Shown here one piece after another: positions 5,914 through 35,091 of a DNA stretch of 45,277 bases. The DNA lies in NCBI GenBank assembly GCA_021814695.1, contig JAKAHY010000001.1, forward strand, positions 1 through 45,277. The letters run 5' to 3'. A model generated the notes under the pieces. It worked only from the letters and a program-made list of their open reading frames with translations. It was not told the origin of the DNA and searched no databases. Position 1 is the first letter of the stretch. The number at the start of each line of letters is the position of its first letter. Source of the DNA: a bacterium. Its GTDB lineage: Bacteria > Patescibacteriota > Minisyncoccia > UBA6257 > JAGOQP01. Position numbers and translations under genes: made by a program.

Positions 5914-6114
5914 CCGTTCGGAGGCGGGAGAGAAATAAAAATAAAAAAGGACTTCGTTTCACGAGGTCTTTTGTTGTCCGTGTTCTGTCCACCTTAGCTC
6001 ACGATCTTGAATTAAGGTGGACATTGGTTCTAAGTCATAAATACAAATAAATTCATCCGGTTCGGAGGCGGGGGAGAAATAAAAAGGACTTCGTTTCTCG
6101 AGGTCTTTTTGTTT
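5914..6114 (+). repeat. two direct repeat units (about 5914-5975 and 6060-6114), each ending in a terminator-like hairpin
   Basis: cgttcggaggcgggagagaaataaaa...aaggacttcgtttcacgaggtctttt versus ggttcggaggcgggggagaaataaaaaggacttcgtttctcgaggtcttttt. Confidence 0.8.
5986..6023. repeat. palindromic repeat copy 1
   Basis: TGTCCACCTTAGCTCA...TGAATTAAGGTGGACA, two mismatches in 16 bp. Confidence 0.85.
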
Positions 6115-6498: not shown

Positions 6499-6547
6499 TG
6501 TCCACCTTATTTCACGTTCTCGTTACTCTCGTGAAATAAGGTGGACA
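6499..6547. repeat. palindromic repeat copy 2
   Basis: TGTCCACCTTATTTCACG / CGTGAAATAAGGTGGACA, 18 bp perfect stem. Confidence 0.9.
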
Positions 6548-7241: not shown

Positions 7242-7279
7242 TGTCCACCTTAGCTCACGGTCGTGAGCTAAGGTGGACA
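7242..7279. repeat. palindromic repeat copy 3
   Basis: TGTCCACCTTAGCTCACG gt CGTGAGCTAAGGTGGACA, 18 bp perfect arms. Confidence 0.9.
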
Positions 7280-32256: not shown

Positions 32257-32338
32257 CGGTTACATCGTTTTGATATGTACGATAATCAAATCAAATAATG
32301 AATATCAGATTAATTACAATAAAAAAGCATTATTTTAC

Positions 32339-32449
32339 TCACCTCGGAGTCCTTTTGCCCAGGTGATGTTTTGGCTGAATAATATAAACTAAAAACATCA
32401 AAAAATCCCCTAGGCAAGATGGCGCCGGGGGATTTTTAGCGCCATCTTG
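32339..32449 (+). ncRNA. candidate structured leader: four stems, the last two mutually exclusive
   Basis: TCACCT/AGGTGA (32339/32361); TGATGTTTT/AAAACATCA (32364/32392); AAAAATCCCC/GGGGATTTTT (32401/32428); CAAGATGGCGC/GCGCCATCTTG (32415/32439). Confidence 0.6.
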
Positions 32450-32564: not shown

Positions 32565-32879
32565 ATGATAGCTCAAACACCTGAAGTCCACGGAATTATT
32601 TCATCTCTAATTCTCTTGATTCCGATATTTGGATTTTCTACTAATTCCATATGTGGGGGCGGTTCCCGATTTTCTAGAAATGAAAGTGATAAGCCAAAAG
32701 ATAATCAGAATGAGATTGACGAAATTAAAAAGGAGATTGAGTTTATTGGAGGAAAAATTAGTGGCATTCAGCAGCGCTATGGGATATTTGATGAGTATAT
32801 GCGCGACTCACTGGATTCTTTATATGAAAAATATAATCAACTCAAAGATAAATTGGCGAAGTTGCTGAGGAAACAATAA
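32565..32879 (+). CDS. small protein, candidate RiPP precursor
   Basis: 104 aa from ATG 32565, SD AGAGAGGAG; stop overlaps the rSAM start (TAATG). Confidence 0.6.
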   Translation: MIAQTPEVHGIISSLILLIPIFGFSTNSICGGGSRFSRNESDKPKDNQNEIDEIKKEIEFIGGKISGIQQRYGIFDEYMRDSLDSLYEKYNQLKDKLAKLLRKQ

Positions 32880-33835
32880 TGAATGGGCCGAAATTTGCTT
32901 CCTGGGAATCAACGTTGAGATGCGATCTTAAATGTATCCATTGCGGATTATGTGCCGGGCCTGAATGTACAAATCTTCGCGGCCCGGAGCTTTCCACCGA
33001 GGAGGCTAAAGGAATGTTTGATCAGCTGGTCTCTCTTGGGGTGTCGAATTTGGTTATTTCCGGAGGAGAATTCACGACTCGTGGCGATTGTAAAGAACTT
33101 CTTGCCTTAGCTCTTGAACGGTTTGTGATGGTTCGCCAAATAAGCAACGGACTTTACGGAAAATATTTCTTTAAGCGGTTTGAGCCTATGGATAACTTGA
33201 ATCGTTATATTCTGTCTCTAAGCCTGGATGGCCTTGAACGAACACACGATGCAATAAGAAAAATGAGCGGTTCGTTTTGGCGGGTTATTGAAATATTAAA
33301 TGCAGATTCTCCAATCCAGAGGACGGTTATTACTACAGTTATGAGGGAAAATTTTCAGGAATTGGAAGATGTGTTCCAATTACTTATGAAATTATCTGTT
33401 CCGGTGTGGGCGATTCAATTAGGACTGCCGGAGGGAAGGATGAGCTCGGCTTCATTTATCGGTGAGGAAAAAATTAGAAGATTGGCTGATACGATTCTTG
33501 ATTGGCAAATGCGGGCCGAAGATGTTATGGAAGTCATTCCCGACGATTGTTTCGGCTATAGGCATTTAATGCGTTTCAAAAACCACTGGAAAGGATGCCA
33601 AGCGGGTAAAAATTTAATCACAATCCTTTCCAACGGCGATGTCACCGGATGCCCGACAACGTTTCATTCAATATGCGGCAATATTCGTGAAAATACATTG
33701 GAAGAAATTTGGAATGGGGATAAGATGAATAATTTCCGTTCCGAACTCCCAAGATGTTCTTCCTGCGACAATAAAATATGCCAAGGAGGATGCCGGGCAG
33801 TTAATCACGTATTCGGAAAACAATTTTGTTTTTAG
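32879..33835 (+). CDS. radical SAM/SPASM domain protein
   Basis: CDLKCIHC (CxxxCxxC), ISGGEFT; C-terminal SPASM Cys pattern GCQAGKNLITILSNGDVTGCPT...CSSCDNKICQGGCRA. Confidence 0.92.
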   Translation: MNGPKFASWESTLRCDLKCIHCGLCAGPECTNLRGPELSTEEAKGMFDQLVSLGVSNLVISGGEFTTRGDCKELLALALERFVMVRQISNGLYGKYFFKRFEPMDNLNRYILSLSLDGLERTHDAIRKMSGSFWRVIEILNADSPIQRTVITTVMRENFQELEDVFQLLMKLSVPVWAIQLGLPEGRMSSASFIGEEKIRRLADTILDWQMRAEDVMEVIPDDCFGYRHLMRFKNHWKGCQAGKNLITILSNGDVTGCPTTFHSICGNIRENTLEEIWNGDKMNNFRSELPRCSSCDNKICQGGCRAVNHVFGKQFCF

Positions 33836-33837
33836 GT

Positions 33838-33862
33838 GAGGCGGAAATATCCGCCTCTTTTT
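33838..33862 (+). terminator. terminator of the rSAM cassette
   Basis: GAGGCGG-aaatat-CCGCCTCTTTTT. Confidence 0.85.
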
Positions 33863-33903
33863 ATAATTTGATAAAATCGGTTGGTGATGATTAAATGAAT
33901 AAT

Positions 33904-35091
33904 ATGGCAAAAGACAATTTATCGGAAAAAATAGACGAAATTTTAAGCCGGGGAGTAAATGAGGTTATTGATCAAAAGCACCTCAAGGAAAAGCTTCTTA
34001 GCGGAAAAAAATTGAGAATAAAGCTTGGAATAGACCCGACTAGCCCCAATTTGCATTTAGGACGTTCGGTGGCGTTTTTGAAACTGCGTGATTTTCAGGA
34101 GTTGGGCCATCAAATAGTACTTATTATCGGAGATTTCACCGGAGTAATCGGAGACACATCTGACAAGGAAAGTGAGAGGCCGATGCTTGATGATGAGACT
34201 ATCAAAGCCAATATGAAAACTTATGCCGAACAGGCGGGAAAAATTTTAGATATAAAAAAGGTGGAACTCCATCGTAATTCGGAATGGCTTGCAAAACTGA
34301 CTTATAAAGACATTGCAAAGCAAGCGGATATGTTTTCATTGTCGGAGTTTATCGCCAGAGAAAATATAGCCAAAAGAATTAAAGCCCAAAAACGGGTATC
34401 GTTGCGGGAAGTTTTATATCCTCTGATGCAGGGTTATGATAGCGTAGAAATAAAATCGGACGTTGAACTTGGAGGAACTGACCAGAGATTTAATTTGCTT
34501 GCCGGTCGGGAAATCCAGAGCCATTATAAGCAGGAACCGCAGGATATTATGATGCTAAACCTCATTGAGGGCCTTGATGGCCGGAAAATGAGCTCCAGTT
34601 GGGGCAATACCGTCAATTTGACTGATGCTCCCAATGACATATTCGGTAAAATTATGAAGGTGGGAGATTCGTTGATTATTAAATATTTTATTCATTGCAC
34701 GCGAGTGCCGATGGAAAAAGTAAAAGAATACGAAAAACGTCTTAAAAAAGGAGACAATCCGCGCGACGTCAAAATGGATTTGGCGCGTGAAATTACTTCT
34801 ATGTATTGGGGCTCAAAAAAAGCCGATGAGGCACAAAAGTTTTTTGTAATGGCATTCCAAAAACACGAAATACCCGAAAACATTCCGGAAATAAAAGCTA
34901 AAAAGGGAGTAACTTATTTTGATGTGCTTGCTGAATCCGGCCAATTTAGTAGCAAGTCAGAAATTTCCAGGCTATTTGAGCAGGGCGCTGTAAATATGCT
35001 TGAACCCGAAGAAAAGAATATCGGCAGAGAAGATAAAGTTGAGGGAGGAACTATCAAGGTTGGAAAGACTAAATTTTTCAGAATTAAATAA
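33904..35091 (+). CDS. tyrS: tyrosyl-tRNA synthetase
   Basis: LGIDPTSPNLHLGRSVAFLKLRDFQELGH (HIGH-like), KMSSSWGN (KMSKS-like), C-terminal S4 domain. Confidence 0.95.
   Translation: MAKDNLSEKIDEILSRGVNEVIDQKHLKEKLLSGKKLRIKLGIDPTSPNLHLGRSVAFLKLRDFQELGHQIVLIIGDFTGVIGDTSDKESERPMLDDETIKANMKTYAEQAGKILDIKKVELHRNSEWLAKLTYKDIAKQADMFSLSEFIARENIAKRIKAQKRVSLREVLYPLMQGYDSVEIKSDVELGGTDQRFNLLAGREIQSHYKQEPQDIMMLNLIEGLDGRKMSSSWGNTVNLTDAPNDIFGKIMKVGDSLIIKYFIHCTRVPMEKVKEYEKRLKKGDNPRDVKMDLAREITSMYWGSKKADEAQKFFVMAFQKHEIPENIPEIKAKKGVTYFDVLAESGQFSSKSEISRLFEQGAVNMLEPEEKNIGREDKVEGGTIKVGKTKFFRIK

Follow-up and report, generated by a model that had tools for sequence, protein, structure and literature searches.

A probable transcription attenuator in front of a radical-SAM cassette

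We conclude that the DNA upstream of a small-protein and radical-SAM gene pair very probably encodes a ribosome-mediated transcription attenuator of the trp/phe type. Computation reveals a short leader ORF, two competing RNA structures whose balance depends on the position of the ribosome, and a layout conserved at other copies of the cassette. The locus lies in the window, by which we mean the whole 45,277-nucleotide stretch that was analysed, and the 748-kb genome to which it belongs contains the element once. An earlier note had proposed an RNA switch or attenuator before the cassette, a proposal supported by the competing antiterminator and terminator folds and by the layout kept at the cassette copies; what it had missed is the leader ORF, along with the strongest alternative structure, in which 32339-32363 pairs with 32409-32432. 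The locus contains the following features.

32259..32286, +: putative promoter GTTACA-16-GATAAT (consensus scan, 9/12 matches, weak -35); the -10 box ends 11 nt before the leader ATG
32298..32366, +: leader ORF of 22 codons, MNIRLITIKKHYFTHLGVLLPR then stop; unannotated, no Shine-Dalgarno sequence, position and length as in the leader ORFs of the homologous leaders L042, L043 and L044
32328-32336, +: candidate control codons His11-Tyr12-Phe13, within the leader ORF
32339..32366, +: 1:2-type hairpin UCACCUCGG/CCCAGGUGA, located within the last part of the leader ORF (stem search, centroid fold)
32339..32363, +: antiterminator 5' strand, supplied by the last part of the leader ORF; its partner in the MFE structure is 32409-32432
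32364..32400, +: antiterminator-capping hairpin, 9 bp (arms 32364-32372/32392-32400)
32409..32432, +: antiterminator 3' strand, overlapping the 5' arm, loop and G-rich 3' arm of the terminator
32401..32437, +: intrinsic terminator AAAAAUCCCCU.GGC/GCCGGGGGAUUUUU, 14 bp with bulged A32412, loop AAGAUGGC and U5; an extension of the hairpin called stem A in the earlier note
32415..32449, +: stem B, perfect 11 bp (arms 32415-32425/32439-32449)
32565..32879, +: small protein, 104 aa, with the motif FSTNSICGGGSRFS (alignment); possibly the peptide on which the enzyme acts
32879..33835, +: radical-SAM/SPASM protein, 318 aa (Pfam Radical_SAM 7.9e-13, SPASM 5.2e-13)
33838..33857, +: terminator hairpin after the radical-SAM gene and before tyrS

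In the mechanism that we propose, transcription would start just upstream of the short ORF, with almost no 5' UTR, and the leader is presumably both transcribed and translated. A ribosome reaching the leader stop codon would cover the end of the ORF, whereupon the extended stem A would form and transcription would end near 32437. If the ribosome is instead arrested early, within the first half of the ORF and no further than about codon 12 in the His11-Tyr12-Phe13 run, the ORF end would stay free to pair with the 5' arm and loop of the terminator, and RNA polymerase would continue into the small-protein and radical-SAM genes. We infer that a poorly charged aromatic (or histidine) tRNA provides the signal.

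Competing structures and ribosome position

The antiterminator duplex has a predicted energy of -30.4 kcal/mol (z -5.9), and none of 3000 shuffles gave one as good. When the RNA is folded up to the U-run, the antiterminator fold around the capping hairpin is adopted by the free RNA (-35.2 kcal/mol) and also under a mask representing a ribosome stalled at His11 (-34.6 kcal/mol); with the mask past Phe13, or with the ribosome at the stop codon, the terminator forms with a probability of 0.999 to 1.0. Tyr12 is the tipping point at equilibrium, the terminator probability there being 0.60 with the mask used. As the free RNA favours the antiterminator, the model predicts that the switch is ON without translation unless the 1:2 hairpin forms first.

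Taken against what is expected of an attenuator, the window holds a short ORF (32298-32366) that overlaps the 5' strand of the antiterminator, an intrinsic terminator (-19.9 kcal/mol, U5) before the structural genes, and an antiterminator that excludes this terminator and is stable beyond chance. Control codons for one amino acid are clear in the relatives, and the window leader has only His-Tyr-Phe (Tyr n=1, Phe n=1). No Rfam leader or riboswitch family was found in the window at the gathering threshold, a tRNA being the sole match.

Leaders of the other cassette copies

Three further known copies of the cassette (genomes G193, G188 and G106), whose radical-SAM proteins are about 55-59% identical, each have a promoter, leader ORF, antiterminator and terminator at similar spacing, and all switch the same way in folding. 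The leader ORFs of the four cassettes comprise 21-25 codons and are near-leaderless, starting about 6-16 nt after the -10 box; the terminator U-run ends 118-140 nt from the ATG across the cassette leaders, and the relatives' promoters are of the TTGACA type and lie in the same place. Aromatic clusters are conspicuous in the other three: YFFGFAY, YFFGFTY and YWYFNY. Between L042 and L043, third-position changes leave the residues of the aromatic codons (Tyr, Phe) intact, and the RNA strand downstream of them is nearly identical but read in a different frame. The earlier note had looked to covariation in homologous leaders: the antiterminator has four compensatory pairs among three sequences, and stem B is absent from L042, L043 and L044. 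In most leaders compared, a single A.C mismatch (C.A in the window) occurs where the antiterminator meets the 5' arm of the terminator.

Related leaders across the order and the nature of the signal

We built a covariance model, R1, from the leaders L042, L043 and L072, that is, from two cassette leaders and one unrelated leader; it covers the RNA from the antiterminator strand onward, with the aromatic codons outside it. The model gave no match to the window leader at E<=1, and the similarity of the window copy to these leaders is architectural, not one of sequence. Low-scoring DNA matches to the L043 leader are leaders that share its design and stand in front of other genes, namely L072, which precedes a different radical-SAM protein, and L067, which precedes a gene without a Pfam match. 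L067 and L173 are orthologous leaders with a conserved YRNHT, found before a 308-aa protein in two genomes of one genus; the protein downstream of L067 has neither a Pfam nor an NCBIfam match.

When the complete genome of the window was scanned for such structures, the window leader and one more were picked, and the same scan of reversed sequence gave no match. The second hit, L092 (G000 C13, about 15352-15200, minus strand), is a second leader-type attenuator in that genome and stands before a GNAT acetyltransferase gene; the covariance model also scores this leader, already found by the separate scan. For the window leader the scan chose a wrong-frame TTG ORF, giving a z of about -3.5, borderline for the cut-off, and for this reason the leader is dropped at a stricter one; the right ORF gives z -5.9. 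In a second, single-contig genome the scan found a WW leader (L143). L143 and L170 are Trp-Trp leaders that each precede a small Cys-rich protein, and L168 (minus strand), whose end reads ...DRLHHHNPIQIRRGLS and which is followed by a strong terminator, may be a leader of the His type.

Further leaders of the same design within the order were found with the covariance model. L176 is a WW leader upstream of a trpD-like gene, which lies about 1 kb away with other ORFs between and is presumably co-transcribed with it; L177 and L181 are YFSFYFF leaders, each upstream of a PfkB-kinase gene with a weakly DAHP-synthase-like gene next in line; L171 has TYWFSF and L182 has VVVIGLSLILL. The weak matches L178, L179 and L180 were set aside, no leader of the same design being seen there. 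The order as a whole has related switches whose leaders carry aromatic, Trp, Phe or branched-chain codons. Ten independent leaders contain 16 tandem aromatic pairs where 4.8 are expected (0 of 3000 shuffles) and, since the model excludes the aromatic codons, this excess is independent support for amino acid sensing.

The main rival keeps the same leader switch and makes its signal general translation stress, such as ribosome-targeting antibiotics or poor initiation, as in erm- and ABC-F-type leaders. It would suit an antiterminator formed by the free RNA and by any early stall, a window leader that is not rich in one amino acid, and a leader class with some accessory genes among its targets, such as the GNAT acetyltransferase gene after L092; however, the significant enrichment of tandem aromatic codons and the trpD-like gene behind one WW leader argue against it, and we consider it rather unlikely. 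Amino acid-specific attenuation is the reading that we prefer, and for the window leader that specificity would rest on its relatives. For what the window copy senses, His11, Tyr12 and Phe13 are the candidates, with translation stress as the alternative; the leader has only His-Tyr-Phe at codons 11-13, where the fold tips.

Stems A and B

The earlier note had described two overlapping hairpins preceded by two further stems, and all four are present. Stem A (32401-32410/32428-32437, 10 bp) and stem B (32415-32425/32439-32449, 11 bp) are perfect; the upstream stems, 32339-32347/32358-32366 (8 of 9 paired) and 32364-32372/32392-32400 (9 bp), have 32364-32366 in common and correspond to the 1:2 hairpin and the antiterminator-capping hairpin, which bears out the suggestion of a larger folded leader. 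The terminator-like character assigned to stem A also holds, in that, extended to 14 bp with one bulged A, it is the intrinsic terminator at 32401-32437 (-19.9 kcal/mol, z -4.15, as stable in 0 of 200 shuffles). Stem B alone reaches -20.9 kcal/mol (z -4.68, as stable in 0 of 200 shuffles); of 20,000 shuffled versions of the downstream DNA, 7 contained an 11-nt perfect complement like the 3' arm of B, and perfect hairpins of 11 bp or more (GC 5 or more, spacer no longer than about 20) occur at five loci in the window, B included. The stems exceed chance. Full A and full B are indeed mutually exclusive, and we rejected an A/B pseudoknot, the loops being too short. A repeat or mobile-element end was likewise rejected, there being no other significant copy in the window's genome. 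Elsewhere in the window, three hairpin copies with TGTCCACCTTA...TAAGGTGGACA ends lie at 5986-6023, 6499-6547 and 7242-7279 with small ORFs between them, and no further copies occur elsewhere in the genome.

Stem A might instead be a plain, possibly bidirectional, terminator of the DUF4258-like gene, with everything else coincidence. It does lie 145 nt downstream of that gene and resembles a good terminator hairpin on either strand; we nevertheless find this reading improbable, given that 3000 shuffles never reached the antiterminator, that the layout travels with the cassette and that relatives without the cassette show, by eye, no comparable hairpin directly after the DUF4258-like gene. Even less credible is the two-state switch between A and B that the earlier note had envisaged, here taken as perhaps ligand-controlled and without a leader peptide: the two stems are perfect, overlapping and mutually exclusive and the B arm is rare by chance, but the 3' arm of B is transcribed only after A and the U-run are complete, B is missing from the three homologous leaders, a far stronger competitor lies upstream and Rfam gave no match at the gathering threshold.

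Because of this order of transcription stem B cannot prevent termination in cis and is unable to act as an antiterminator. It can have no bearing on whether its own transcript terminates and would close only in read-through RNA, where, for RNA extending to 32600, it is the predicted ground state (probability 0.9).

The cassette and its distribution

Same-family relatives have a mannosyltransferase-like gene (-), a DUF4258-like gene (+) and tyrS (+), and in most of them the DUF4258-like gene and tyrS sit side by side; in the window these two are about 1.6 kb apart, the interval consisting of the leader, the 104-aa ORF and the radical-SAM/SPASM gene. Copies of the cassette occur in 4 of 245 genomes of the order (the window and three others) and, in samples of 387 class and 382 phylum genomes, in the window's own genome only; a pattern-based scan of 85,462 species genomes returned the same three copies and otherwise only distant radical-SAM proteins (<=35% identity).

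A small protein with [FY]ST[NS]S[IL][TC]G[GA]GS precedes the enzyme in every copy (4/4) and was found in 4 of the 245 genomes, always beside the radical-SAM gene. The arrangement by which RiPP radical-SAM maturases are recognised, with a conserved small peptide encoded invariably next to a SPASM radical-SAM gene, is present in 4 of 4 cases; compared with named maturase families, the protein reached no NCBIfam equivalog cut-off. From sequence, the small protein is a candidate substrate that the enzyme would modify. We rejected a viral origin, no viral contig encoding the radical-SAM protein having been found, and a defence role, viperin profiles matching weakly (3.5e-5) and the SPASM domain and peptide not fitting it. 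We also rejected tyrS as the regulated gene: in relatives it neighbours the DUF4258-like gene without a cassette, the other cassettes are not beside it, and a terminator separates it from the radical-SAM gene. The window tyrS (33895-35091) is 65-72% identical to some family members and only 41% identical to its syntenic counterparts in the two genomes of the same genus, a pattern suggestive of xenologous replacement.

Relation to known systems and significance

The trp, phe and his operon attenuators of Proteobacteria (Trp_leader, Phe_leader and His_leader type) have a leader ORF with control codons and 1:2, antiterminator and terminator structures, among which ribosome position decides. The window element resembles them in its short leader ORF with candidate control codons, its three structures and an outcome set by ribosome position; it differs in its near-leaderless ORF, the lack of an Rfam match at the gathering threshold, a radical-SAM/small-protein target instead of a biosynthetic operon, and a host that is probably Patescibacteria-like, to judge by the size and gene complement of the genome. 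In Actinobacteria, comparative analysis has uncovered RNA elements of amino acid metabolism, leader peptides included (PMC1262725); lineage and targets differ here. Antibiotic-inducible leaders, for example tylosin-dependent ones, let ribosome stalling in a short ORF decide downstream expression (PMC6851288), as we propose here; our leaders are enriched in aromatic codons and have no antibiotic-resistance gene downstream.

The mechanism is that of a classical amino acid attenuator; within the reach of the tools used and the literature searched, what is new is the lineage, the target (radical-SAM/small-peptide) and the use of leader ORFs that are near-leaderless. The literature searched yielded no report of leader-peptide attenuation in this bacterial group, an absence that is weak evidence. 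Little is known of gene regulation in reduced, probably host-dependent bacteria (PMC11665869). A switch whose control codons can be read from the sequence is a directly testable sensor, and it hints at the conditions under which an uncharacterised peptide-modifying cassette is expressed. Tentatively, we hypothesize that ribosome-mediated, amino acid-specific attenuators form a family in use throughout this order of small-genome, probably patescibacterial, bacteria and that here it may tie a radical-SAM-modified peptide to the supply of aromatic amino acids, for instance for signalling or scavenging when the host supplies too little.
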